A stretch of DNA of 58,160 nt, taken from positions 1-58,160 of the forward strand of contig SCNI01000023.1 in NCBI GenBank assembly GCA_005502775.1, read 5' to 3'. Under the pieces are notes generated by a model, which worked only from the letters and a program-made list of their open reading frames with translations, was not told the origin of the DNA and did no database searches. Shown here one piece after another: positions 1,172-44,274 of the stretch (position 1 is its first letter; each line of letters starts with the position of its first letter). Both the position numbers and the translations under genes were made by a program. This stretch comes from Microbacteriaceae bacterium 3FA27C10 (GTDB lineage: Bacteria > Actinomycetota > Actinomycetes > Actinomycetales > Microbacteriaceae).

Positions 1172-3694
1172 TCAGAGGCCCTCGCGCTCCACCATCGGCA
1201 GGGCCACGCGGGTGACCACCGTGTCGAGCACGGCCCAGGCGAGCCGACGGTGCCACGGCAGGTGCCCGGTGTGCACGGCGGTGTACTCCAGCTCGGGTTC
1301 TCCGCCCCGGTTGCGCTTGAACTCCGCCACGCCGCTCGAGGCGTGCAGCTCGACACCGGCATCGTGGGCCGTGCGGGCGATGACGTAGCTCAGGATGCGG
1401 TACAGACCGGCCTCGCGCGAGAGCGCGGTGTCGTAGCCGACCACCGGTGCGGCGAGAAGCCCGTGGGCCACGGCGTAGCCGATGACGGCGTCGATGCGGC
1501 CGCGCCCGGCAGCATCCGGATCGCCGAGGACGGACTCCTCGTCGCGCTCGATCAGCAGGAAACGGAGGAACCCGCTGCGCTGGGCGGCGCCGATGAACTG
1601 CGGCGTGTAGCGCGGGTTCAGCCGGGAGTACTTGTCGGTGTAGAGCAGGCGGTAGAGCTCGGCGATGCGGGCGCGGGTCGGCGCATCCGACATGCCGGTG
1701 GTGGGGTCGACGGCGGCGGGGCGCACCGTGTAGCCCGAGCTCTCGAGCAGGGCGCGGTCGCGGCGAACATCGCGGAGCGACAGCCATTCGGTGCCGCGCG
1801 TGTCGGTGAACAGCACGCTCCGCGAGGGGATGAGCCGGTAGCCCGCGCGCCGCAGCACGGCGGGGAGCGCGGAGCCGTGAGCGTGCACGCTGCGCCAGCC
1901 GATGGCGAGGCGCGGATGCCGGCGACTGAGCTCGCCAGTGAGGCTCGCGACCTCGGCCTCGTCGAGTTCGGGCAGGAGGTTGGTGGAGACCAGGGCGTTG
2001 CCGATGAGCGCGATGTCGTCGACGCGGCCCGCCTGGAGCACCCGCTCGAGCGCGGCCACGGCGCCGCGGGCGAGCAGACGGGCCGGGCGGGACTGCAGCT
2101 CGCCGATCTCCTCCCGGGCGTAGTGCACGTAGTGGGTGAGCGGCGAGACGACGTAGCTGGCGGGTTCGGCCCCGGGCACTCGGCTGCCGTGGCGACTCGG
2201 GAGCGTGAGCGGCAGGAGGTGGCCGGCGACGGGGATCGTTGCCAGCTCCACGTCGATGTTGGGTGCGAGCGCGCGGGTACCGCCCTCCGCCGCGCTGAGC
2301 ACGGCCAGCCGGGCGGCCCACTCGCCGCTCGCAGGCTCGGCCGCGCGCGCGGACGAGGACTGCTCGCCGGCGCGCGAACTCGGGGACCGTTCGCCGGCAG
2401 GCGGCGCGGGCAGCGGCTCGCCGTTCCACTCGATGTCGTGGGTGGAGGCGGCCAGCAGGGGAATGCGGGCCGTTCGCGCCGTCGCGCCTTGCACGGCCAG
2501 GGAGCGGAGGAGTGCGGTCACGCGGATGCGGTCGCCGGGCGGGCGGAGGGCATCCGGAAAGCGGAGCTGCGCGACGAAGCGGCGGGCATCCGACGGCCGG
2601 CGGATGCCCGCCGGCGCGTAGAGGGCGTGCGGCAGAGCGAGCCGCGCGGCGCGGCGGCTCGGCGTCGCGGCGGGCCGGCCGGAGAACGCGGCGGCCAGGC
2701 CATCGCCCGGGCCGAACAGGTGCAGCCCGCTCGTCGCGCGCGGATTGCATTCGAGCACGTGCACGCGGGGAGGCGCGGAGGCATCCGGAGCGCCCAGCAG
2801 CAGATCGAGCCCGAAGAGGCCGGTCACGCCGAGGTGCCCGGCCAGGCGCTCGGCGACGGCGCGCGCCTCGCCGACCTCGGGCCGCGACTCGTCGAGACGC
2901 TCGAAGGCGACGGCGGCTCCGGTGCCTGCGCGCCACACCGGGCGATACGCGGCGAACGCAGTGAGCTGTCCGGCGACCGCCACGACGCTCACGCAGAACT
3001 CGCCACCGGTGAGCTCGCGCTGCACGAGCCACGGATGCTCGGGCGACACTCCGGCGACCGTGGGCAGCGGCTCGCCCGCAGCCACCCGCACGGTGCGCGA
3101 GCCGAACCGCGAGTACGCGGGCTTCAGAACCACCGCGGGCGCGGTCGCGCCCCGGCGCGCCGCCGCCCGCCTCCACGCGATGGCCGACGACACCACCGCG
3201 GTCTGCGGATGCGCGATGCCGAGCTCCCCGAGCAGGCGCGCGAACGCCGCCTTGTCGTGCAGCACCCGCAGGGTGTCGAGGGGTGGCGCGAACAGGCGTT
3301 CAGCGAGGAAGCGCAGATCCGGGGAGGGATCCCGGAACCGATCTGCGGCGCTCACGCCACCGGAGGGGCCGCCTGCGATCGCCGGATCGGCCGCGCCGGA
3401 GGCGGCCCCGGCCGATCCCACCGCCGCCGCGAGCCAGAACGTCTCCTCGCAGCTCGGAACCACCAGCGAGGCCGCATGCCGTCGGGCGATCTGCTGCACC
3501 GCAGCCGCGAACTCCCACGGGCGGAACCGCGCCGACGGCACCCGGTAGGCCGCGCCCACCGCCGCCGACGCCGCCGTGAGGTTCGGCTGGCTGTCGGCCA
3601 CGACCACGAACGCGCCCTCCTCGGCGAAGCGCCGCGCCAGATCGGCCGTGACCGGGGCCCGGCCGCCCGTCAGCAGCACCGCCCTCGCGCTCAC
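1172..3694 (-). CDS. ATP-grasp ligase fused to a C-terminal GNAT-like domain
   Basis: An 840-aa two-part protein. About residues 1-330 form an ATP-grasp enzyme: nucleotide-fold start (RAVLLTGG), ATP-binding lysine (VVLKPAYSRFG), the VQRELTGGEF strand, and the metal-binding LECNPRATSGLHLF. About residues 340-530 are a linker with a low-complexity Ser/Ala/Glu patch. The C-terminal third (about 550-840) resembles GNAT/FemAB-like acyltransferases (RLLYTDKYSRLNPRYTPQFI, then YRILSYVIARTA). ATP-grasp enzymes form amide or ester bonds through acyl-phosphates, and GNAT proteins transfer acyl groups, so a small-molecule or peptide modification role is likely but the substrate is unknown. The GTG start overlaps the stop of the upstream SRPBCC gene as GTGA and follows a GAGGGG ribosome site; longer starts are unlikely. 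Confidence 0.75.
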   Translation of the reverse strand: MSARAVLLTGGRAPVTADLARRFAEEGAFVVVADSQPNLTAASAAVGAAYRVPSARFRPWEFAAAVQQIARRHAASLVVPSCEETFWLAAAVGSAGAASGAADPAIAGGPSGGVSAADRFRDPSPDLRFLAERLFAPPLDTLRVLHDKAAFARLLGELGIAHPQTAVVSSAIAWRRAAARRGATAPAVVLKPAYSRFGSRTVRVAAGEPLPTVAGVSPEHPWLVQRELTGGEFCVSVVAVAGQLTAFAAYRPVWRAGTGAAVAFERLDESRPEVGEARAVAERLAGHLGVTGLFGLDLLLGAPDASAPPRVHVLECNPRATSGLHLFGPGDGLAAAFSGRPAATPSRRAARLALPHALYAPAGIRRPSDARRFVAQLRFPDALRPPGDRIRVTALLRSLAVQGATARTARIPLLAASTHDIEWNGEPLPAPPAGERSPSSRAGEQSSSARAAEPASGEWAARLAVLSAAEGGTRALAPNIDVELATIPVAGHLLPLTLPSRHGSRVPGAEPASYVVSPLTHYVHYAREEIGELQSRPARLLARGAVAALERVLQAGRVDDIALIGNALVSTNLLPELDEAEVASLTGELSRRHPRLAIGWRSVHAHGSALPAVLRRAGYRLIPSRSVLFTDTRGTEWLSLRDVRRDRALLESSGYTVRPAAVDPTTGMSDAPTRARIAELYRLLYTDKYSRLNPRYTPQFIGAAQRSGFLRFLLIERDEESVLGDPDAAGRGRIDAVIGYAVAHGLLAAPVVGYDTALSREAGLYRILSYVIARTAHDAGVELHASSGVAEFKRNRGGEPELEYTAVHTGHLPWHRRLAWAVLDTVVTRVALPMVEREGL

Positions 3695-4179
3695 GCCCCC
3701 TCGGCCACTCTCACGCACTCGGCGAGCGAGCGGCGCATGTACACCAGCCAGATCGGCCCGATCAGAGCCCGCACCACGAAGCGCCGCCCGCGCAGCGGCC
3801 GGAAGCCGTAGCTCCACCGGATGCGCGACCCGTCACCCGTGGGCTCGTAGCGCCAGTGCGCCTCGGCGTCCGACACGAGGTGCGCGAGCAGCTTCGTGAA
3901 GGCGGTGACCCGGTAGTCGAACACGCCCACCGCATCCGGAGTCGCCGGCGGCTCGTAGCGCAGGATCTCCTCCTGGAACCGGCCGCCGTCGGAGAGATGC
4001 ACGAGGCGCCGCTCCCCCGGTCCCGTCCACGGCCCGGTCTCGTCGGAGATGCGCGTGACCGCGGGCAGCACGAGGAAGCCACGGAACAGCGTGCTGTCGT
4101 CGCGCGGCACCACCCGATCGAAGGCGACGCGCGCCGAGACGCTCGCGAGGGCATCCGCACTGAACTCCACCAGCTCCAT
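3691..4179 (-). CDS. SRPBCC (START/Bet v1-like) ligand-binding protein
   Basis: A 162-aa protein with the SRPBCC pattern: an N-terminal strand and helix, a basket of beta strands (GERRLVHLSDGG, FQEEILRYEPP, FDYRVTAF), the strand RIRWSYGFRP, and a long C-terminal helix. The fold binds hydrophobic ligands and occurs in polyketide cyclases and lipid-transfer proteins. The ATG at 4179 has TACGGT 6 bases upstream (4191-4186), predicting a leaderless mRNA. It is the first gene of a two-gene operon and is coupled by GTGA to the ATP-grasp/GNAT gene, so the two probably act on the same compound. Which compound cannot be read from the sequence. Confidence 0.75.
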   Translation of the reverse strand: MELVEFSADALASVSARVAFDRVVPRDDSTLFRGFLVLPAVTRISDETGPWTGPGERRLVHLSDGGRFQEEILRYEPPATPDAVGVFDYRVTAFTKLLAHLVSDAEAHWRYEPTGDGSRIRWSYGFRPLRGRRFVVRALIGPIWLVYMRRSLAECVRVAEGA

Positions 4180-34853: not shown

Positions 34854-35747
34854 CTAGCGGGGCTCGCGCGGCTCGACGGTGAAGCGGCGCAGGGCGAGGG
34901 CGGGGTTGACGCGGCGCACCTCGTCGATGCGGCGCGGGTCGATCCAGGCCACCGCCACGTCTTCACGCTCGCCGAGCGAGGCGATCGTGACCCCCATCGG
35001 GTCGACCACGAGACTCGCGCCCACGCCGATCGGCGGGGTCTGGTCGGCCGCCGCGACGTAGATGGTGTTCTCCAGCGCCCGCGCGGTCACGAGTGAGCGC
35101 CAGTGATGCTCCTTGAGCGGCCCGCGCACCCACTCCGCGGGCACGGCCACGAGATCGGCCCCCGCGTCGACGAGCCGGCGCGACACCTCCGGGAATCGGA
35201 TGTCGTAACAGGTCTGCATGCCGACGGTCACGCCCTCGATCGAGAAGGTCTGCGGCTCGGCGATGTCGCCCGCCTCCACCCACTCGCTCTCGTGCGCCCC
35301 GAAGGCGTCGTAGAGGTGCAGCTTGCTGTACGTCGCGACGACGCCGTCGACGGGCGACACCGCGACGAGCAGGTTCGAGAAGCGCCGCTCATCGCGTGCC
35401 CGGGCCACGAGCCCCGCGATGATGTGCACGTCGAGCTCGGCGGCGAGACCCGAGAGCACGGTCACGAACGGCCCGTCGAGCGGCTCGGCGTTCTGCACGA
35501 GCGCCTCCCCCAGCGGGTCGACGAAGTACGAGGAGTACTCCGGGAACACCACGAGCGAGGCACCGCGCACCGCGGCCTGACGACTCAGGCGTGCGATGGT
35601 CTCGAGGTTCGCAGCCTTGTCGGCGCCCGGCGAGAACTGCGCCACCGCCACGCCGAAACCGAGCCCCGTCTCGCCGTCGAGCATCTCGCCCTGCACGATC
35701 TCGGACGGCTCGGTGGGCAGGATCTCGCCGTGCACGACGCCGGTCAC
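34854..35747 (-). CDS. Carbon-nitrogen hydrolase (nitrilase superfamily)
   Basis: A 297-aa enzyme with the nitrilase triad: Glu in VFPEYSSYF, Lys in YSKLHLYDAFG, and Cys in MQTCYDIRFPE. The sequence is of the omega-amidase/Nit type, which hydrolyse amides rather than nitriles; the substrate is not visible. The GTG at 35747 overlaps the stop of the alcohol dehydrogenase gene (GTGA), which indicates translational coupling. Another GTG at 35738 is possible. It ends just after the palindrome that separates it from the aminotransferase. Confidence 0.88.
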   Translation of the reverse strand: MTGVVHGEILPTEPSEIVQGEMLDGETGLGFGVAVAQFSPGADKAANLETIARLSRQAAVRGASLVVFPEYSSYFVDPLGEALVQNAEPLDGPFVTVLSGLAAELDVHIIAGLVARARDERRFSNLLVAVSPVDGVVATYSKLHLYDAFGAHESEWVEAGDIAEPQTFSIEGVTVGMQTCYDIRFPEVSRRLVDAGADLVAVPAEWVRGPLKEHHWRSLVTARALENTIYVAAADQTPPIGVGASLVVDPMGVTIASLGEREDVAVAWIDPRRIDEVRRVNPALALRRFTVEPREPR

Positions 35748-36781
35748 GAGAGCACCGCCATCGCCTTGACGGCCCGGCGTTCGTCCATCGCCTTGTAGCC
35801 CTCGGCCAGGTTCTCGAAGTCGAGCTGCAGGTCGAACACCCGGCCCGGTTCGATCGAGCCGTCGAGCACCTCGGTGAGGAGATCGGGGATGTACCGGCGC
35901 ACGGGCGCGATGCCGCCGGAGAGCCCGACGTTGTTCGAGAACGCGATGCCCACGGGCAGCTGCACGCCGTGCGGAACCCCCACGAAGCCCACCCGGGAAC
36001 CGGGGCGGGCGATGGCGAAGGCGGTGTTCATCGACTCGCCGGTGCCCACGCACTCGAGGGTCGCATCCGCCCCGATGCCGCCAGTGAGCTCGACGACCGC
36101 GACCACTGCATCCTCGCCCCGCTCCTCGACGATGTCGGTGGCGCCGAACTGCACGGCCAGCGCCTGGCGGTCGGCATGCCGGCTGAGGGCGATGATGCGC
36201 TCGGCCCCGAGCCGCCGGGCGGCGAGCACACCGCTGAGGCCCACGGCGCCGTCGCCGATGACGGCCACGACCGAGCCGGGCACGACGCCCGCGCCGAGCG
36301 CGGCGTGGTGGCCCGTTCCGCAGACGTCGGTGAGGGCGAGCAGGTGCGGGAGGAGGGCGTCGGTGGGACGGCCGCCCGGCACCGCCACGAGGGTGCCGTC
36401 GGCGTAGGGAACGCGCACGAACTCCCCCTGGCCGCCGTCGATGCCGCGCGAACCCCAGAAGCCGCCGTGGATGCACGAGGTGGGCACGCCGTTCAGGCAG
36501 TGCACACAGGTGCCGTCGTTGAAGGTGAAGGGGGCGATGACGAAGTCGCCCACCGAGAGCGAGCCGACGTCGGTGCCGATGGCCTCGACCACGCCCACGA
36601 ACTCGTGGCCGATGCGCGCACCGGCCGGATGCGGGGTCAGGCCGCGGTAGCGCCACAGATCGGACCCGCAGACGCAGGTGGCCACCACCCGCACCACCGC
36701 ATCGGTCGAGGCCTGGATCTCGGGATCGGGGACGTCCTCGATCGACACCGAGAACGCGTCGTTGAACACCACTGCTCGCAT
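35744..36781 (-). CDS. Zinc-dependent alcohol dehydrogenase (MDR family)
   Basis: A 345-aa medium-chain dehydrogenase. Catalytic zinc ligands: Cys in CVCGSDLWRYRG, His-Glu in GARIGHEFVGVVE, and Cys in ALTDVCGTG. The structural zinc site is reduced: CVHCLNG and TSCIHGG give three of four cysteines in an unusual spacing. The NAD(P) site is VIGDGAVGLSGVLAARRLGA. The substrate is unknown. TAGAGT lies 6 bases before the ATG at 36781, so this gene and the coupled nitrilase should be transcribed separately from the P450 operon, although only 55 bases follow the P450 stop. Confidence 0.88.
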   Translation of the reverse strand: MRAVVFNDAFSVSIEDVPDPEIQASTDAVVRVVATCVCGSDLWRYRGLTPHPAGARIGHEFVGVVEAIGTDVGSLSVGDFVIAPFTFNDGTCVHCLNGVPTSCIHGGFWGSRGIDGGQGEFVRVPYADGTLVAVPGGRPTDALLPHLLALTDVCGTGHHAALGAGVVPGSVVAVIGDGAVGLSGVLAARRLGAERIIALSRHADRQALAVQFGATDIVEERGEDAVVAVVELTGGIGADATLECVGTGESMNTAFAIARPGSRVGFVGVPHGVQLPVGIAFSNNVGLSGGIAPVRRYIPDLLTEVLDGSIEPGRVFDLQLDFENLAEGYKAMDERRAVKAMAVLS

Positions 36782-36836: not shown

Positions 36837-38039
36837 TCAGGAGCGTTCGAGCACGAGCCGCGAGTAGCCCGGGATGAGGGTTCCGCGCTGAGCGCGCCGC
36901 TCCACGATCGCGAGCGGTGCGGCGGCCGCCGCGTCGAGCACCGCCCCGAGCGTGGTGCCGATCTGCGCCATCGCCAACGGGGCACCGAGGCAGAAGTGGG
37001 CGCCCGCCCCGAACCAGAGCTGCTTGAGCGAGGCGGCCGGATTGGCGACGGGGTCGAAGGCGCCGGCCGCGCGATCGGCGAGGAAGGTGGCGAGCACCAC
37101 GCGGTCACCCGGCCCCACCGCGACTCCGCCGATGCGCGCGGGCGCGGCGACGCTGCGCAGCATGACCGGCGACGGCGTGGTGACGCGCAGGCCCTCGGCG
37201 ATCGCCGCGGCCTCGCCGCTGCGATCACGGGCGAGCACGCCCAGCCAGCCGGTGTCGTGCAGGATCGCGAGCATCCGCGGCAGGTACGACACGAGCGTCT
37301 CGGTGCCGGTGAGCACGAAGGCGCCCACCGCGCCCATCGCCTCCTGCTCGGAGAGGCCGAGTTCGCGCATCCGCGCCGGCACCGTGCGGGCGGGCACACC
37401 GTCGTCGCGGTAGGCCGCGCGGGCGTGCGTGGTGAGCTCGTCGAGCACGGCGCGGGCGCGGCGCACCTGCGGCTCGGTGAACCGGGGGCGCGACAGCCGC
37501 ACATAGCCCGTGACGGCCGAGACCCGGGCGAAGAGCCCGGCGTCGACGACGTCGTGGTCGAGCCCCACGAGACGGCTGATCACCCGGCCGGCGAAGTCGC
37601 GCACCTCGGCCACCGCGTCCACCCGCTCCCCGGCGAGCAAGCGCTCGGTGAGCCGGGCGGCGGCTCCGCCGAGGGTCTCGGCGGTCAGGGCGTTCACGAA
37701 GGCCGGCGCGAAGAGCGGGCCCAGGCGGCGGCGCAGGGCGAGATGGTCGACGCCCTCCATGTTGAGCAGCACCGAGGGGCCGAGCACCGGGGTCCAGAGG
37801 TCTGCGGGCGAGCCCGGGCCGGTCTTGGTGAAGCGTGCGGTGTCGAGCAGAACGCTGCGCACGAGCTCAGCCTCGGTCACCACCACACCCACGCGCGGCA
37901 CCCGAAGCACCGGCCGCCGGATGCGCGACAGCAGAGGGTAGACGAACGGATGCGCGGCGCGCTGCACCCGCTCCTCCCAGCGGCGCTCTGCGCCCGGCCG
38001 GGTCTGCGCGGCTGCGGCGGCGGTCGCGGCGGCGCTCAC
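36837..38039 (-). CDS. Cytochrome P450
   Basis: A 400-aa soluble P450. The heme-ligand signature is FGAGAHFCLGAPLA with the thiolate Cys350; the ExxR motif is EGLR in IAEGLRVTTPS; and the I-helix oxygen site reads LTGTETLVSY, with Glu-Thr in place of the common Asp/Glu-Thr after AG. The N-terminus lacks a membrane anchor, so it needs a ferredoxin or similar partner encoded elsewhere. It is the last gene of the adenylate-forming/SDR/KAS III operon; its GTG start overlaps the KAS III stop as GTGA. It probably hydroxylates or desaturates the operon product. Substrate unknown. Confidence 0.93.
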   Translation of the reverse strand: MSAAATAAAAAQTRPGAERRWEERVQRAAHPFVYPLLSRIRRPVLRVPRVGVVVTEAELVRSVLLDTARFTKTGPGSPADLWTPVLGPSVLLNMEGVDHLALRRRLGPLFAPAFVNALTAETLGGAAARLTERLLAGERVDAVAEVRDFAGRVISRLVGLDHDVVDAGLFARVSAVTGYVRLSRPRFTEPQVRRARAVLDELTTHARAAYRDDGVPARTVPARMRELGLSEQEAMGAVGAFVLTGTETLVSYLPRMLAILHDTGWLGVLARDRSGEAAAIAEGLRVTTPSPVMLRSVAAPARIGGVAVGPGDRVVLATFLADRAAGAFDPVANPAASLKQLWFGAGAHFCLGAPLAMAQIGTTLGAVLDAAAAAPLAIVERRAQRGTLIPGYSRLVLERS

Positions 38040-39229
38040 AGCCGCACCACCATTACGCCGAGCGAGATGCCGCCGGCGAGCCCCACGAGCGCCACCAGGC
38101 TGCCGTCGCGCACGAGACCGCGCTCCCTCGCCAGCTGCAGCTGCAGCGGCAACGTCGCCGAGGCGAGGTTGCCGTGCTCGGCCACCGTGAGCACCGACTT
38201 GGCCGGGTCGACACCCAGCGCCTCGAGGATGGTCTCGTGGGCGGCGACGGCCACCTGATGCACGGCGACGAGGTCGAGCTCGGCCATCCGGAGCCCGAGT
38301 TCGGCGAGCAGCTCGTCGACCAGGCCCACGCCGAGCTCGGCGAAAGCGCGCTGCAGGGCGGCGCCGTCCATGTCGAAGTAGCTGCCGCCCTCGGCGTGCG
38401 GGTTCACGGAGCCGCCGGTGGGGAGCGTGCCGACGGGCCAGTGCGTCGAGTGGGCCACGAAGCGGCTGCCGAGGATGCCGGGGGCCGAAGCTGCGGCACC
38501 GCCCGAGGCGCCCGGACCAGCGGAGTCGGCCGGACCGGCGGAATCGGCCGGACCCTCGGAGGCGCCCTCACCCGTGCGCTCGAGCACGACCGCGGCTCCC
38601 CCGTCGCTCATCGTGTAGCCGGCGAAGGAGCGCAGGAACTGCCCGCGGCTCTCGAGCCGCCAGCGCACCGCGTGCGAGGGCTGCTCGCCGCTCACGACGA
38701 GCACGCGGTGGTGCTGCCCGGTGGCGATCAGGGCGTCCGCGACCTGCATCGCGTTGAGCACGCTGTTGCAGGCGTTCTTGACGTCCATCACCGGGCAGTC
38801 GAGGCCGAGCTTGGCGGCGACGATGTGGCTCGTGGCGGGCTCGATCATGTCCTGGCTGGCGGAGGCGAAGAGCAGCAGGTCGACGGGCCCCGGCGTGGCC
38901 GCCAGGGCGCGGCGTCCGGCCGCGACGGCGAGATCGGAGGTCTGCCAGCCCTCGGGCCGCAGGTGCACGGCTTCGACTCCGGTGAGACGGCCGACGAGCC
39001 CGGTGGGCAGCTCGAGCCCTGGATTCTCGCGGCGCAGGCGCTCTTCGGTCTCGGCCGCGGTGCGGATCGTCGGCGGCAGGAAGGTGGCGACCGCCGCGAT
39101 GCGCACCTGCGGGCCGGGCCGTAGCCGCAGGGCGCGCTCGGGGGCCGGCGTCGCCGAGGCGTGCGACGCCGTGGCCTCGGCGCCGGCGCCGACACCGGCG
39201 ACGAGCGACGGCGCACCCGGCGCGGTCAC
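38036..39229 (-). CDS. 3-oxoacyl-ACP synthase III (KAS III/OleA-like) condensing enzyme
   Basis: A 397-aa thiolase-fold enzyme with the complete KAS III triad: Cys154 (VKNACNSVLNAM), His324 (VAVHQVAVAAH) and Asn354 (EHGNLASATLP). It joins acyl thioesters by Claisen condensation. Two oddities: an extra 40 residues at the N-terminus and a low-complexity insert of Ala/Gly/Ser/Pro/Asp repeats (about 222-250, PADSAG twice), both likely disordered. It differs from housekeeping FabH, and its operon partners suggest a special lipid or natural product. The GTG start overlaps the SDR stop (GTGA). OleA-like head-to-head condensation is possible but not proven. Confidence 0.88.
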   Translation of the reverse strand: MTAPGAPSLVAGVGAGAEATASHASATPAPERALRLRPGPQVRIAAVATFLPPTIRTAAETEERLRRENPGLELPTGLVGRLTGVEAVHLRPEGWQTSDLAVAAGRRALAATPGPVDLLLFASASQDMIEPATSHIVAAKLGLDCPVMDVKNACNSVLNAMQVADALIATGQHHRVLVVSGEQPSHAVRWRLESRGQFLRSFAGYTMSDGGAAVVLERTGEGASEGPADSAGPADSAGPGASGGAAASAPGILGSRFVAHSTHWPVGTLPTGGSVNPHAEGGSYFDMDGAALQRAFAELGVGLVDELLAELGLRMAELDLVAVHQVAVAAHETILEALGVDPAKSVLTVAEHGNLASATLPLQLQLARERGLVRDGSLVALVGLAGGISLGVMVVRL

Positions 39230-40320
39230 GGGCGCATCCCGTCGCGCTCGGCACGGGCGCGGGCGCCGTCGAGCGTACGCGCGAATCGCTCCAGTCCCTC
39301 CGCCATCGGCACGAGGGGCTCGCCGAGCAGCTCGCGGCAGCGCTCGGCGTCGAAGGTCTTGGCGAAGGCGTACACGATCACCGAGTATCGCGTGATCGGC
39401 GGCTCACCGCGACGTCGCAGCACTCTCCACACCCCTTCGACGAGCGTGGCCGCGGCGAGCGCCGTGCGACGCGAGACCGTGCGCTGCGGCACGGGGACCC
39501 CGGCACGGTCGAGGAGTGCGAACACCGCTCGCTGCAGGTCCACGGGCTCGCCATTGGTCACCGCCAGGGTCGTGCGGGCCGCGCGGGGCTCGGTGAGCGC
39601 GCGCACGAGGTACTCCACGAGGGTGTCGATGTAGACCAGGTCGGAGAGCACCGGCCCTCCCGCGCGCGGCGCCCGGAACCTCGGCAGACGGCCCCGTTCG
39701 GCGGCGGCGGCGATGCGCGGGAACAGCGTCGTGTCCCCCGGCCCGAACACCGCCCGGGGCCGCAGGATCACCCATTCTCCCGGATAGCCGCGCACCAGGT
39801 GCTCGGCGGCGTGCTTCGAGGCTGCGTACTCGCTCACGAAGCGGCGCGGCACGCGCTCGTCGTCGCGGAGGGCGAGCTGGTCGCGCGCCCGGGAGAGAAC
39901 GGATGCGGTCGACACGAACACGAGGCGGGGCCGGCAGCCGGGCGCGAAGCTCCGCGCGTACTCCAGCACCGCCCGGGTCGTGCCCACGTTGTCGCGCTCG
40001 AACTCGGCCCGGGTGCCCCAGGGCGAACTGCGCGCCGCCGCGTGCACGATCACCTCGGGCCGGAACGACTCGTGCTCCCCGGCACGAGTCAGCCCGCGGA
40101 GCCGTTCGGCGGCGTCGGGCGCGGCGAGGTCGACCCGGCGATACGCCGCCACCGCCGCGCTCCCTTCGGCGACCGCACCCCGCGATCCCGCACCCGGCAC
40201 ACCGGCATCGACATGCCGGCGCCCGACGCCCAGCACCGCGAAGCCCGGGTCGTCGGCGAGCCGGCGCAGCAGCGCCCCTCCCACGAAACCCGAGGCCCCC
40301 GTCACGAGAACCCTCACCAC
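39226..40320 (-). CDS. Extended SDR, NAD-dependent epimerase / OleD-like reductase
   Basis: A 364-aa extended short-chain dehydrogenase. The Rossmann motif is VTGASGFVGGALLRRL (residues 6-21), and catalytic residues are Ser138/140 (FVSTAS) and Tyr165-Lys169 (SEYAASK). The segment VHAAARSSPWGTRAEFERDNV resembles 3-beta-hydroxysteroid dehydrogenase and OleD proteins rather than sugar epimerases. The likely role is to reduce the beta-keto product of the condensing enzyme. The GTG at 40320 has GGAGAT 4-5 bases upstream. The stop overlaps the KAS III start. Gap to the adenylate-forming gene: 85 bases, with nothing visible in it. Confidence 0.88.
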   Translation of the reverse strand: MVRVLVTGASGFVGGALLRRLADDPGFAVLGVGRRHVDAGVPGAGSRGAVAEGSAAVAAYRRVDLAAPDAAERLRGLTRAGEHESFRPEVIVHAAARSSPWGTRAEFERDNVGTTRAVLEYARSFAPGCRPRLVFVSTASVLSRARDQLALRDDERVPRRFVSEYAASKHAAEHLVRGYPGEWVILRPRAVFGPGDTTLFPRIAAAAERGRLPRFRAPRAGGPVLSDLVYIDTLVEYLVRALTEPRAARTTLAVTNGEPVDLQRAVFALLDRAGVPVPQRTVSRRTALAAATLVEGVWRVLRRRGEPPITRYSVIVYAFAKTFDAERCRELLGEPLVPMAEGLERFARTLDGARARAERDGMRP

Positions 40321-40405
40321 GCCGATCTCCCGCTCCCCCGGCCCGCGAGGCCGCCGCACGGGCGCAGGGCCGTGACCGCCTGCGCACCCGGGCGGGCACC
40401 CGCCC

Positions 40406-41830
40406 TCACGAGGCATCCTCGCGCACGATGCGGCGCACCTTCTCGGCCGGGAGCGGCGGCACCCAGGGCACGAGCTCGACGGGAGCCGCGCATCCGTAGC
40501 TCTCGAAGAGGGCGGCGAGCGCCGCCGTCACCCGGGCACCGGCGTCCCGGTCCGGGTCGGCGAGCGCCACCTGCAGGCGGAGGCCCGTCTGGCGGATGCG
40601 CCAGTCGGCGAACCCGCCGGACTCGACGGCCATCGCGCGGCGCACGGCATCGGGGAACACCTCGACCACCCGCAGGCCATCGGTCGAGGGCAGGTGGAGC
40701 ACCGCGTCCGCCCGACCGTCGACGGCCGCGATCACCACGGTCACCCGCCCGCAGGCGCACCGCTCCGGGGCTGCCGTATCGACGCGCAGCACGTCGTCGA
40801 GCCGGTAGCGCGCGATGATCTGGGTGCGCCGGTCGAAGTCGGTGACCACGGGCGTGAAGCGCGTGCGGCCCTCTCCGGGAGCGGCACCCAGCCACTCGCG
40901 TTCGACGTGCACCGACTCCTCGTTGAGATGCAGGGCGCCCTGCTCGCAGCTGATGCCGAGCAGCCCCTCGGTGGCCTGGTAGACCTGCCGGGGCTCGCTG
41001 CCCCAGGCCCGGCGCACCCGCTCGGCCGTGGCCGGCTCGAGCACCTCCGCCACCGAGATCACGAGGCGCGGCGCCACACTCCGCTCCCCGCGCAGGGCCC
41101 TCACGGCGAGCGCATCGAGCACCGAGGGCGGCGCCACGAGCACCTCCGGTCCCCGTCCCTCCTCCCTCGCCGCCACGAGCCGTTCGACGTGCGCCTCCAG
41201 CGGCTCCGTCAGGTCGAAGAACGCGAAGCGGATGCGCGAACTCGCGACCGACTCGTAGAGGTTGCCGCCCGCGCGCAGGAAGAAGGCGATCCCGAGCGGC
41301 GGCCGCCACGGCATCAGCACCTGACGGAGCGACGCCCCGTCGAGGACGCGACCGAGGATGGTGCCGGCCCACAGCATCCGTTCCCGTGGGCTCACGAGGA
41401 ACACCCCGCGCCGCCCCGAGGTTCCGCTCGACAGCCCCACCGTGAGGTCGCCGCCGAGCACCGGGCGGAAGTCCCGGGTGCGTTCCGCCTCGAGCGCAAC
41501 CCCGAGGGCGTCGGCGAGGCGCACGCCCCGGGTGTTGAGCCCGTCGAAGTGCTCGAGCAGCACGCTCTTGTCGATCACGGGCAGCGCGGCGAGTGACGGC
41601 GCGCGTGCACCGGGCGCCGGCGCGACGATCGCCCCGGGTCCCGCGGCGGCCCCGGGGGCCCCGCCTCGGTAGTAGGGCGCACGCGCGATGCGCCGCAGGA
41701 ACGAGCGGATGCGCCGCGCCTGCCACGCCTCGAAGCGTGCGCGCGAGCGGAACCGCAGCCCCCATCTCGCACGAACGAACCGGGCGAGCAGCACGGCCAC
41801 GAGTGCGCGATCCGTCATCGACCGTCTCAC
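40406..41830 (-). CDS. Adenylate-forming enzyme, F390-synthetase-related (TIGR02304-like)
   Basis: A 474-aa member of the AMP-forming acyl ligase superfamily, in the branch of phenylacetate-CoA ligase/coenzyme F390 synthetase. Phosphate loop LSSGTSGRRG (about residues 133-142), the YQATEG motif (284-289), and YRLDD (342-346) followed by CACG. The wording LPVIDKSVLLEHFDGLN, FFLRAGGNLYE and SVAEVLEP is as I remember it from the TIGR02304 family of unknown function, which often sits beside KAS III and epimerase genes. It probably activates the hydroxy acid made by its neighbours, for ester or lactone formation. The GTG at 41830 is chosen because TATCCT lies 6 bases upstream; an ATG at 41818 is the alternative. 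Confidence 0.85.
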   Translation of the reverse strand: MRRSMTDRALVAVLLARFVRARWGLRFRSRARFEAWQARRIRSFLRRIARAPYYRGGAPGAAAGPGAIVAPAPGARAPSLAALPVIDKSVLLEHFDGLNTRGVRLADALGVALEAERTRDFRPVLGGDLTVGLSSGTSGRRGVFLVSPRERMLWAGTILGRVLDGASLRQVLMPWRPPLGIAFFLRAGGNLYESVASSRIRFAFFDLTEPLEAHVERLVAAREEGRGPEVLVAPPSVLDALAVRALRGERSVAPRLVISVAEVLEPATAERVRRAWGSEPRQVYQATEGLLGISCEQGALHLNEESVHVEREWLGAAPGEGRTRFTPVVTDFDRRTQIIARYRLDDVLRVDTAAPERCACGRVTVVIAAVDGRADAVLHLPSTDGLRVVEVFPDAVRRAMAVESGGFADWRIRQTGLRLQVALADPDRDAGARVTAALAALFESYGCAAPVELVPWVPPLPAEKVRRIVREDAS

Positions 41831-41842
41831 CCGGCCAGGATA
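41831..41842 (-). promoter_or_regulatory. Leaderless -10 box of the adenylate/SDR/KAS III/P450 operon
   Basis: TATCCT (41842-41837) plus 6 bases before the GTG at 41830. No ribosome site precedes the GTG, in line with a leaderless start. Confidence 0.5.
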
Positions 41843-41900
41843 CGCGGAGCCGCGCCGCGCGGCAGGCCGGAGCACCGTCCCGCCGCCGACCGGCGACTCG

Positions 41901-41912
41901 TAGACTGCTCGC
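41901..41912 (+). promoter_or_regulatory. Leaderless -10 box of the GAP-family gene
   Basis: TAGACT (41901-41906) plus 6 bases before the ATG at 41913, 58 bases from the divergent operon's -10. Confidence 0.5.
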
Positions 41913-42668
41913 ATGGCGGGAATCATCGGGCACATCCTTCCGCTCGCCCTGGGTGTGGCGCTGAGTTCCGTGCCCATCATCGTGATGGTGCTCATCCTGC
42001 TCTCCCCGCGTGGCCGCGCCTCGAGCATCACCTACCTGATCGGTGCCGCCGTCGGGATGCTCGCACTCACCATGCTCTTCACGGCCGGTGCGAGCCTGCT
42101 TCCTCCTCCTCCACCTTCGCAGAAGAGCCCGCTGTTCGCGGTGATCGAGATCACGCTCGGGGTGGGGCTCCTCGTGCTGGCGGTTGTGCGCTGGCGTCGC
42201 AGCCGGCAGCCCCGGGCCCGCGGCGAGGTGCTCGCCACGGAGGACATCCCGGCCGACATCGACGACATCGACCTGGCAACGCTCGCCACGTCTTCCACGA
42301 GCCCCGCCCGCACCACCCCGAAGTGGATGACCCGGGTCACCACCCTCGGCCCCGCCCCGTCGCTCGGGGTGGGTTTCGTGCTCATGCTGCGGCCGAAGAA
42401 CCTTCTGCTCACCATCGCCGCAGGCGTCGCCATCGGCGCCGGCAACCCGACTCTCAGCGAGGCGGCCATCGCGATCGTGATCTACGTCGTGCTCGGCATC
42501 TCCACCTTGGCCGCTCCGATCATCGTGGCCGTGGCGAACCCGACCCGGATGCGCAAGCCGCTCGAGGAGACCCGCCTCTGGATCGAGGGCAACAGTGCCA
42601 CGGTCACCACCGTCGTGGTGCTCATGCTGGGTACCGTCATCATCGGCTCCGGTCTGCAGCGCTTCTGA
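41913..42668 (+). CDS. GAP-family (Sap/LysE-like) membrane protein, probable lipid exporter
   Basis: A 251-aa integral membrane protein with about six helices arranged as 3+3 around a cytoplasmic loop of charged residues (about 95-145). It opens with LPLALGVALSSVPIIVMVLIL and has FVLMLRPKNLLLTIAAG in the second half, the pattern of the GAP family. Mycobacterial Gap and Sap help bring glycopeptidolipids and sulfolipids to the cell surface. It is divergent from the condensing-enzyme operon by 82 bases, so it may export that operon's product. The start is backed by TAGACT 6 bases upstream. Confidence 0.8.
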   Translation: MAGIIGHILPLALGVALSSVPIIVMVLILLSPRGRASSITYLIGAAVGMLALTMLFTAGASLLPPPPPSQKSPLFAVIEITLGVGLLVLAVVRWRRSRQPRARGEVLATEDIPADIDDIDLATLATSSTSPARTTPKWMTRVTTLGPAPSLGVGFVLMLRPKNLLLTIAAGVAIGAGNPTLSEAAIAIVIYVVLGISTLAAPIIVAVANPTRMRKPLEETRLWIEGNSATVTTVVVLMLGTVIIGSGLQRF

Positions 42669-42711: not shown

Positions 42712-44262
42712 TCAGCGGTAGTCGCGCAGGAACCGCTCGAACTCGTACTGGCCTGTGCCGCCCGAGGTGACGTCGCCGATGCGCAGCACGGTCAATCCCG
42801 CGTAGCGGGCGCCCGCACGCTCGAAGGCGTCGCGGATGTGCGACCACCCCACCCCCGTGGCCGAGCCCGAGCTGCCGAGGTTGCCGGCGAGCGCGTTCTC
42901 GCCCTTGAGTGTGACGTGCGCCTTTGCTGCCGCGTCGGCCACCCACCCCACGAGCGAGGCGGCGTCGGAGTAGGCGTGGGCTGTGCCGTCCCATTCCCGC
43001 CCGTTCGGCATCTCGAGCGCCGTGAAGTGCAGCACCACGTGGTGCTTGGGCGATAGGCCGCCGTCGCCGTTCACCTCGAGATCGTGCGCGAGATTCAGGA
43101 TGCCGTCGTAGCCGTGGTCGGTCGATGTGCCGTTGTAGTCCTGGTCGGTGTGCACCAGGCCCGCCGCGATCTCGGGAACCCGCTGCATCGGGCTCGTCGT
43201 CATGGTCTGCCAGTGCACCCCGGGGACCTTGAATCCGAGCGGCACCGTGGCGAACGCCCCGTCGAAGGCCCCGATGGCCTGCTGCATGACCTCACGGCCG
43301 TGGAGCAGCAGGCTCTCGCTGTACCAGCGGGTGAAGTCGCGCCCGTAGGTAATGGATCGGTAGGAGCCCGAGGTGATGAAGAGCTCGTGGTCGGTGGGCG
43401 GCGAGATGCGGCTGTAGACCAGGCCCGGGATGCCCCACGCCGTCGCCACTCCGGCGACCGACCCGTACTTCGCCACCGCCCAGTCGGCGAAGGCCTGCAC
43501 GGCGGCCGGCGTGTAGCTCTGGAACGTTCCGCGGTTGGGGTACCCGGCCGGGTCTCCGGGCACGGAGCGGTCGTGGGAGGCGTAGGAGGGGAAGCGCAGC
43601 TCCCCGGCCGGACCCAGGCCGATGGTGATCTCGGGGAACCGGCTGGGGTAGTCGGTGGTCCCGCTCGAATAGTGGTCTTCGAAGGCGTTCATCAGGTCAC
43701 GCATGTCGCGCAGGGTGCGCTCGTTGCCGATGCCCCACGGCGACGGCGCCTCGCGGTCGTCGTTACCGTACTCGCTCCGGTAGAAGTTCTCGACCGGCTG
43801 GCTCGAGCACCACCCCGCGACACCGCAGATCTGGAAGGGCTCCCAGACGAACGCCGGCACCGGGATGTTGCAGGTGTCGCCGACGTTGCCGCCGCACTGG
43901 TGGAACGACATCATCGGCACGACGTCGAGCCCGGCCGCGGTGATCGCACCGAAGACCTTGTCGTAGTAGGCCCAGTCGAAGGCGCCCCGCTCGGGCTCGG
44001 CCTTGCCCCACCACACGTCGACGGCCACCGCGTCGACGCCCTGCGCATCCGCCGTCGCGAGCGACGCCGTGAACGCCCGCCACTGCGGCCCGGCCGAGGC
44101 CCAGTCGTCGATCCAGAGCGGGGCCATCACGTTGACAGACTCGGCCGCGTGGGAGCTGGCCTGGGCAGGGGGCGCCGCCGCCGGAGCGGCGACGAGGGCG
44201 GTGACGGCGAGGGCGGCGGCTCCGAGAGCGAGCCCGAGACGGGAGGGGTTCCGGTAAGACAT
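42712..44262 (-). CDS. Secreted glycoside hydrolase family 14 beta-amylase
   Basis: A 516-aa enzyme that releases maltose from starch ends. A signal peptide occupies about residues 1-38, and the GH14 domain follows: VDVWWGKAEP, the hallmark MSFHQCGGNVGD, catalytic acid Glu221 in GLGPAGELRFPSY, and catalytic base Glu417 in HFTALEMPNG. The distance between the two (196) is close to the 194 of the plant enzyme. No starch-binding domain follows. The ATG at 44262 has TAGCGT 6 bases upstream, so it is leaderless and separate from the M28 gene that ends 50 bases before it. GH14 is mainly a plant and Bacillus family. Confidence 0.92.
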   Translation of the reverse strand: MSYRNPSRLGLALGAAALAVTALVAAPAAAPPAQASSHAAESVNVMAPLWIDDWASAGPQWRAFTASLATADAQGVDAVAVDVWWGKAEPERGAFDWAYYDKVFGAITAAGLDVVPMMSFHQCGGNVGDTCNIPVPAFVWEPFQICGVAGWCSSQPVENFYRSEYGNDDREAPSPWGIGNERTLRDMRDLMNAFEDHYSSGTTDYPSRFPEITIGLGPAGELRFPSYASHDRSVPGDPAGYPNRGTFQSYTPAAVQAFADWAVAKYGSVAGVATAWGIPGLVYSRISPPTDHELFITSGSYRSITYGRDFTRWYSESLLLHGREVMQQAIGAFDGAFATVPLGFKVPGVHWQTMTTSPMQRVPEIAAGLVHTDQDYNGTSTDHGYDGILNLAHDLEVNGDGGLSPKHHVVLHFTALEMPNGREWDGTAHAYSDAASLVGWVADAAAKAHVTLKGENALAGNLGSSGSATGVGWSHIRDAFERAGARYAGLTVLRIGDVTSGGTGQYEFERFLRDYR

Positions 44263-44274
44263 CCCCACACGCTA
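44263..44274 (-). promoter_or_regulatory. Leaderless -10 box of the beta-amylase gene
   Basis: TAGCGT (44274-44269) plus 6 bases before the ATG at 44262. Confidence 0.5.

Follow-up and report, generated by a model that had tools for sequence, protein, structure and literature searches.

We analysed a 58,160-nt stretch of the genome of the plant-associated soil organism Microbacteriaceae bacterium 3FA27C10 (contig SCNI01000023.1 of assembly GCA_005502775.1; hereafter the window), which is one contig of a 4.0 Mb genome in 115 contigs, and compared it with 15 further Herbiconiux genomes. We focused on a block of genes for an adenylate-forming enzyme of family TIGR02304 (the ligase), an extended short-chain dehydrogenase/reductase (SDR), a 3-ketoacyl-acyl carrier protein synthase III (KAS III; KAS for the gene of this block) and a cytochrome P450, from which a gene for an SfLAP (Gap/Sap-type) membrane protein diverges (Table 1). 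By its residues, trees and gene neighbourhoods, this locus reads as a hybrid, with the KAS and P450 of one kind of cluster and the ligase and SDR of another. An original prediction from the sequence had named these five genes, and all were found at the positions claimed, with families above curated cut-offs: TIGR02304 (350.9 bits, cut-off 251.9) for the F390-synthetase-like ligase, ACP_syn_III_C (67.8, cut-off 26.6) for the KAS, PF00067 (26.3, cut-off 22.8) for the P450 and PF11139 (138.8, cut-off 35) for the divergent GAP-family protein. The proposed coupling of four genes is upheld by 4-nt overlaps between SDR and KAS and between KAS and P450, and by an 11-nt overlap of the ligase stop with the upstream ATG of the SDR, if that ATG is used; the ligase starts at 41818 rather than 41830. 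Two genes had been missed, one for a zinc-dependent alcohol dehydrogenase (ADH) 55 bp downstream of the P450 gene and one for an ATP-grasp/GNAT fusion. Promoter/terminator and tRNA scans found none.

An OleA-type KAS and its P450 partner

The KAS has the complete triad that had been predicted, since Cys154, His324 and Asn354 are invariant in 7/7 aligned KAS. Its Glu130-Pro131 aligns with the Glu-Pro of X. campestris OleA; in the passages of PMC7064751 on OleA, Glu117-Pro is found in all but two aligned OleA proteins and the Glu is essential in the X. campestris enzyme. We found Glu-Pro in 25/25 rows of the Herbiconiux-type KAS clade and also in OleA rows, as against 0/18 sampled KAS of canonical TIGR02304 clusters and 0/8 FabH-type rows, and the KAS also follows OleA in the NAC around the nucleophile and in HQV. 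An earlier alignment and tree drew on canonical KAS (18 chosen rows), ole loci (12) and FabH-type rows (8). In a 67-row tree (two L222 rows left out), Herbiconiux-type KAS of all four cluster types described below (A to D) formed one clade (25 rows, support 100/99), sister to OleA (41 rows together, 99/97) and not inside the ole-cluster clade, apart from both the FabH-type rows and the KAS of TIGR02304 clusters. Judged by sequence, the KAS is thus OleA-type rather than FabH-type, and it would be predicted to perform a non-decarboxylative (head-to-head) condensation of two acyl-CoAs.

We call the enzyme OleA-type, not OleA, because it exceeds the cut-off of neither curated model, with 159.8 of 285 bits for PRK09258 (NF006720) and 108.6 of 292.1 bits for fabH (TIGR00747). 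The OleA of an ole locus in another Herbiconiux genome (G004) scores above the PRK09258 cut-off (442.4 vs 285), and the separate FabH-type KAS III of the genus scores above that of fabH in all 4 rows checked (of 8). Tree placement and residues led us to reject a housekeeping FabH, the placement that would have spoken against the original prediction. That the KAS acts like a FabH/CerJ-type KAS III, by acyl transfer or malonyl condensation, and that the product of the locus is a tailored but otherwise ordinary fatty acid or ester, seems improbable to us: its best single PDB sequence match is FabH (4ryb) and KAS III folds are alike, but the tree, the Glu-Pro, NAC and HQV residues and the shortfall against a fabH model that the genus FabH-type enzymes reach all argue otherwise. 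Structure comparison was rejected as a judge between OleA and FabH, since Foldseek does not discriminate between them.

Other KAS genes came to light alongside. Two Herbiconiux genomes (G001 and G005; loci L171 and L172) hold an extra FabH-type KAS III that is not part of the cluster and scores above the cut-off of fabH. In two members of the order with 8-9 Mb genomes (L268, L269), the KAS is the first branch on the OleA side of the tree, carries the NACNS motif of the Herbiconiux-type clade and adjoins an OleBC fusion. In a plasmid collection the KAS had five distant matches; of three regions inspected there, one yielded a useful gene table.

The P450 sequence holds FGAGAHFCLG and TGTET, which we take to be the haem (Cys) motif and the acid-alcohol motif of the I-helix, and the protein has the residues of a putative monooxygenase. 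The P450 tree and partner scan excluded L045, L063, L268 and L269 together with five type A loci, and matches of more than 520 aa or less than about 300 aa were discarded. In this tree the type A, B and C rows and three Microbacteriaceae type D rows formed one group (18 rows, 98/98) that lies among type D P450s, with the P450s of L307, L308 and L310 distant and outside it. The P450 of G004 (L055) carries an in-frame alanine-rich insertion of ~60 residues, and its frame is open.

Two probable parent clusters behind one locus

A Herbiconiux-type KAS profile matched 23/396 genomes of the order set (E<=1e-60) and 33/394 of the class set (E<=1e-55), and we read the gene context in 18 of the 22 other matching genomes of the order and in 16 more among the 28 newly matched genomes of the class. 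With the Herbiconiux arrangement as type A, the 18 order contexts comprised 13 of type D (KAS, glycosyltransferase (GT) of family GT2, P450 and OleC-like ligase, with an SDR match in 10/13), two of type B (TIGR02304 ligase-SDR-GT21-...-KAS-P450), one of type C (ligase-ATP-grasp/GNAT-KAS-P450-SDR, as in Psychromicrobium silvestre L073) and two with an OleBC fusion. In the class set, L296 and L298-L302 read KAS-GT-P450-OleC-SDR, and L306 and L307 read KAS-GT-OleC-P450-SDR; L308 has all five genes plus another GT, L310 lacks only a match for the SDR, L295 and L297 have KAS-GT-OleC with no P450 match, L303 and L305 OleBC-like pieces, and L304 and L309 only the KAS. No TIGR02304 match (E<=1e-6) was found in these 16 contexts and none in the 13 type D loci, whereas those of types A, B and C that were read carry TIGR02304 without any OleC-like match. 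This mutual exclusion in the KAS/P450 loci implies that the two ligases occupy the same slot. No metallo-beta-lactamase-fold (MBL), GT or OleC-like match was found in the window or in 16 type A loci (MBL and GT2 were not searched elsewhere in the genome), and a search of this genome with an OleBC query (E<=1e-20) drew a blank, which agrees with the predicted absence of OleB.

The second putative parent emerged from a TIGR02304 search of named genomes, in which we used the best 80 of 567 confirmed loci. Within this set, the closest ligases belonged to Herbiconiux species (8 loci). The other 72 loci had matches to the MBL protein (71), SDR (70), KAS III (65), ATP-grasp or GNAT (54), OleBC (2) and P450 (1, Psychromicrobium). 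Such clusters were found in Pseudomonas, Paenibacillus, cyanobacteria, Acidobacteriota and others, and their MBL protein resembles acyl-homoserine lactone (AHL) lactonases, below the cut-offs of those. ATP-grasp relatives were found in 52 of 71 named canonical loci, and GNAT relatives in 44. In the Pseudomonas protegens cluster (L087 12644-14602) the GNAT gene is followed by a Rieske-domain gene that may be a counterpart of the P450, and the frame holding this domain has matches in 24/71 loci.

The ligase lies over the TIGR02304 cut-off, in keeping with the earlier assignment to a branch other than OleC. For the SDR, the description as OleD-like holds, yet it scores 145.5 bits against the OleD model NF042422 (cut-off 580) and does not group with the OleD of ole loci. 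None of 24 matched Actinomycetota genomes reaches that cut-off (best 445), so the SDR tree is the better test. This tree was built from chosen loci (8 type A and the window, 13 type D, 18 canonical and 9 ole) and placed type A and B SDRs with those of TIGR02304 clusters from Acidobacteriota, Verrucomicrobiota, Gemmatimonadota and Undibacterium (17 rows, 100/100), the two type B rows being nearer to those six canonical rows than to type A (94/82). The join of this group to the other 12 canonical rows is weak (83/45). Type C SDRs fall among type D SDRs (15 rows, 100/99), and the OleDs of ole clusters form a third group. In one genome (G008) the SDR match is in two parts and contains one in-frame TGA (G008:C4:127222-128289), either an assembly error or a real break.

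Because a TIGR02304 ligase sits in the OleC slot together with an SDR of the TIGR02304-cluster type, the Herbiconiux locus reads as a hybrid of the two kinds of cluster, and type C reads as an intermediate form. A chance association is excluded, since the ligase is present in 16/16 genus genomes and the KAS-P450-ligase set recurs in other genera in different surroundings.

Table 1. Features of the hybrid locus and its proposed partners (positions in the window)
Feature	Position	Strand	Evidence
TIGR02304 (F390-synthetase-related, PaaK-like) adenylate-forming enzyme	40406..41818	-	TIGR02304 350.9 bits, AlphaFold2 model, PDB matches
Extended SDR, OleD-like, TIGR02304-cluster branch	39226..40320 (alternative ATG 40416)	-	NF042422 145.5 bits, SDR tree
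OleA-type KAS III, Cys154/His324/Asn354 and Glu130-Pro131	38036..39229	-	Alignment, tree
Cytochrome P450	36837..38039	-	PF00067, motifs (also those of relatives), P450 tree
Zinc-dependent ADH, optional fifth gene	35744..36781	-	PF00107/PF08240
SfLAP (Gap/Sap-type) membrane protein, divergent from ligase	41913..42668	+	PF11139 138.8 bits
ATP-grasp/GNAT fusion, proposed in-trans partner	1172..3694	-	42% identity over 847 columns to the Psychromicrobium cluster copy
SRPBCC (Polyketide_cyc2) protein, possible accessory	3691..4179	-	PF10604 39.8 bits

Conservation in Herbiconiux and a possible natural swap

The TIGR02304 ligase exceeds its cut-off in 16/16 Herbiconiux genomes (this genome and the 15 further ones) and in 12/299 genomes of a family sample, 7 of the 12 being Herbiconiux. 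A PF08541 census of KAS III genes found the cluster KAS in 13/16. As foreseen, gene order is conserved in relatives: SfLAP / ligase-SDR-KAS-P450 lies on one stretch in 12/16 genomes and is split over two contig ends in G014, and the same block occurs in G040, a Microbacteriaceae genome of another genus. The zinc ADH adjoins the P450 in 12/16 genus genomes and in G040; in G003, G004, G010 and G012 it is missing from this place. The SfLAP protein is one of four paralogues in this genome and an SfLAP gene is in the same place in G040, with no SfLAP match near the KAS-P450 core in the type B, C and D loci searched; a part in lipid export, drawn by analogy, would be a guess.

The flanking HtrA, aminotransferase, nitrilase, GH14 and M28 genes are also conserved in the genus, so synteny at genus level proves little by itself and the weight lies with the other genera. 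These flanks would suit a purely regional synteny in which the genes do not form one pathway, but we regard this as very improbable, because the KAS-P450-ligase linkage persists in types B and C with no nitrilase, ADH or SfLAP neighbours found there and the genes overlap by 4 nt. Among the flanks, the GH14 (beta-amylase family) gene at 42712-44268 (265 bits) adjoins the cluster and was matched in all 15 Herbiconiux stretches compared, not in the G040 stretch.

Three genomes (G003, G004 and G012) lack the cluster KAS, and G003 also lacks the SDR orthologue and has only OleD; all three retain the ligase, P450, SfLAP and ATP-grasp/GNAT. Only these three have a 358-aa OleA, within a complete oleA-oleBC-oleD locus, and only they have a full-length OleBC among the 16 genomes; G006 gave a partial OleBC match (32%, residues 38-302 of the 895-residue query). 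They form one clade (100/100) with G010 beside it (93/92). Across the three pairs of this clade, dN/dS was 0.066-0.123 for the P450 and 0.244-0.272 for the ligase, compared with 0.114-0.305 and 0.185-0.328 in three KAS-bearing pairs (for two of the P450 pairs, over just 198 codons). We therefore rejected decay of the cluster in this clade, as both genes are under purifying selection. Most simply, OleA (in G003 together with OleD) would supply the same kind of intermediate, so that the full ole cluster in precisely those genomes that lack the KAS would amount to a natural complementation; the two may also coincide without being related.

Possible product and comparison with known systems

On balance, we lean towards a hybrid lipid pathway that yields an oxidised 2-alkyl-3-hydroxy acid activated by the ligase. 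The KAS would join two acyl thioesters head to head, with Glu130 as base, giving a 2-alkyl-3-oxo acid; the SDR would reduce it to a 2-alkyl-3-hydroxy acid; and the TIGR02304 ligase would adenylate the carboxyl in the role of the OleC-like ligase of the sister clusters. These three steps are suggested by residues, phylogeny and the slot shared with OleC-like ligases. The activated acid might then close to a beta-lactone or pass to a polar partner, for which the ATP-grasp/GNAT fusion would be the likely agent. The P450 may hydroxylate the alkyl chain, the ADH may oxidise it further in most species, and the SfLAP protein may help the product to move outward. The ligase model (AlphaFold2, mean pLDDT 87) is PaaK-like, with best PDB matches at TM 0.5-0.6 and <21% identity; structural matches include PaaK, NatL2, AjiA1 and 2-hydroxyisobutyryl-CoA ligase. 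PaaK-like ligases activate acids for several nucleophiles, so the fold does not tell a lactone from an ester, an amide or a CoA ester.

The fusion of Psychromicrobium matches the window at 1175-3685 (-). A Pfam search of the window copy (E<=0.01) found no domain and PRK06849 gave 192 bits, below its cut-off of 406, so the ATP-grasp/GNAT identity rests on relatives and on that score. The gene is matched in 16/16 Herbiconiux genomes; in the window, 33 kb separate it from the P450 and 37 kb from the ligase. Ten other genomes carry it on the ligase contig, about 37-93 kb away, and five have it on a different contig. The fusion sits inside the operon in Psychromicrobium and in G812. The SRPBCC gene overlaps it by 4 nt in the window and is within about 1 kb of it in 12/16 genus genomes, with no match at the other four loci. 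We propose that the fusion works with the ligase; as a likely partner, it speaks no less for an amide or ester lipid than for a beta-lactone.

An amide or ester lipid, such as an aminolipid or a mycolate-like surface lipid, in which the fusion acts in trans to join the adenylated 2-alkyl-3-hydroxy acid to an amine or alcohol, is a tentative possibility. It is consistent with the presence of the fusion throughout the genus, with its place in the operon of Psychromicrobium and G812 and with its co-occurrence with the ligase in other phyla, but the distance from the P450, the separate contigs in five genomes, the blank Pfam result and the absence of a fusion match near type B clusters (their surroundings were searched, not the rest of those genomes) count against it. 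One specific form, a mycolate-like lipid made by an OleA-type KAS in place of a Pks13-type condensase, with P450, TIGR02304 ligase and attachment of a head by the fusion in trans, appears unlikely to us; if true, it would be a new surface-lipid class born of the merger of two unrelated clusters, and the TIGR02304 enzymes of many phyla would be beta-hydroxy-acid ligases. A direct replacement of OleC by the TIGR02304 enzyme, with an oxidised 2,3-dialkyl beta-lactone as product, as proposed for Actinoplanes, is possible but doubtful. The shared slot beside the same KAS and P450 and the missing OleBC match favour it, and passages of PMC7064751 describe oleACD without oleB making beta-lactones in Streptomyces toxytricini and Nocardia brasiliensis, but TIGR02304 usually goes with the lactonase-like MBL (71/72) and ATP-grasp/GNAT (54/72) instead of ole genes (OleBC 2/72), and Herbiconiux retains ATP-grasp/GNAT.

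Several points weigh against the hybrid lipid pathway. The KAS stays below both curated cut-offs, and Foldseek ranks FabH and OleA together (KAS model pLDDT 78). Support for the group of type A, B and C and L063 KAS (94/95) is below the starred level, as is that for the corresponding ligase group (93/80), the ligase tree having been built without eight of the type A rows, without alternate canonical rows above L076 and without short matches. As the KAS-less genomes form one clade, they represent one event and count as a single observation, and all three (like G010) also have no ADH beside the P450. The ATP-grasp/GNAT gene lies apart from the cluster, its role being drawn from relatives. Finally, as passages of PMC7064751 report, the Actinoplanes OleA hydrolysed a p-nitrophenyl (pNP) ester in cells, and the purified enzyme, which was scarce (it precipitated), gave no Claisen product. 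Overall, the earlier interpretation of an oxidised lipid or a beta-lactone/ester product that is exported is partly supported.

In the result listings of a literature search for TIGR02304 and 'F390 synthetase-related protein', we found no mention and no characterisation of the cluster. The main text of a Herbiconiux pangenome paper, in which antiSMASH was used, is without 'beta-lactone' or 'P450', a supplementary table aside, and its passages and term counts mention no such cluster. The cluster may thus be a blind spot of genome mining. The label 'undescribed' was nevertheless too strong, since the KAS-P450 core is shared with OleA-GT-OleC-P450-OleD clusters already predicted in print (PMC7064751).

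The nearest system in gene context is that of Actinoplanes atraurantiacus, whose enzyme was not placed in the KAS trees here: section 11 of PMC7064751 gives a cluster of OleA, GT, OleC, P450 and OleD, with a glycosylated hydroxy-beta-lactone predicted, not isolated, and lists the genes in the order of L306-L307. It shares an OleA-type KAS, a P450, a reductase, an AMP ligase and the absence of OleB, and equals type D in gene content. Herbiconiux differs in having a TIGR02304 ligase instead of OleC, an SDR of another branch, no GT match (window and type A loci) and adjoining SfLAP and ADH genes; of the five proteins OleA, GT, P450, OleC and OleD, the KAS and P450 are homologous, and GT and OleC were not found in the window. 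The canonical KAS-SDR-MBL-ligase clusters have a related ligase, SDR and ATP-grasp/GNAT, but their KAS lacks the Glu (0/18 sampled), a P450 match is absent in 71/72 and MBL is present in 71/72; the Herbiconiux locus, with no MBL match in the window and loci searched, a Glu-bearing KAS and an unlinked ATP-grasp/GNAT, does not belong among them. With the OleABCD olefin pathway it shares the OleA-type KAS and OleD-like SDR, but not the OleBC (no match in this genome) or OleC (no OleC-like match in the window), and it is, as originally held, no standard ole cluster. Like lipstatin- and nocardiolactone-type oleACD systems (we take nocardiolactone to be the name of the Nocardia brasiliensis product), it has an OleA-type KAS, a reductase and a ligase with no OleB. 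It differs from them by the P450, another ligase family and a single KAS, LstA/LstB being a heterodimer in the account of PMC7064751. What is new here is an OleA-type lipid cluster equipped with the ligase and reductase of a widespread cluster; the position of a TIGR02304 ligase in an OleC-like slot beside an OleA-type enzyme points to a substrate class and makes the family testable.

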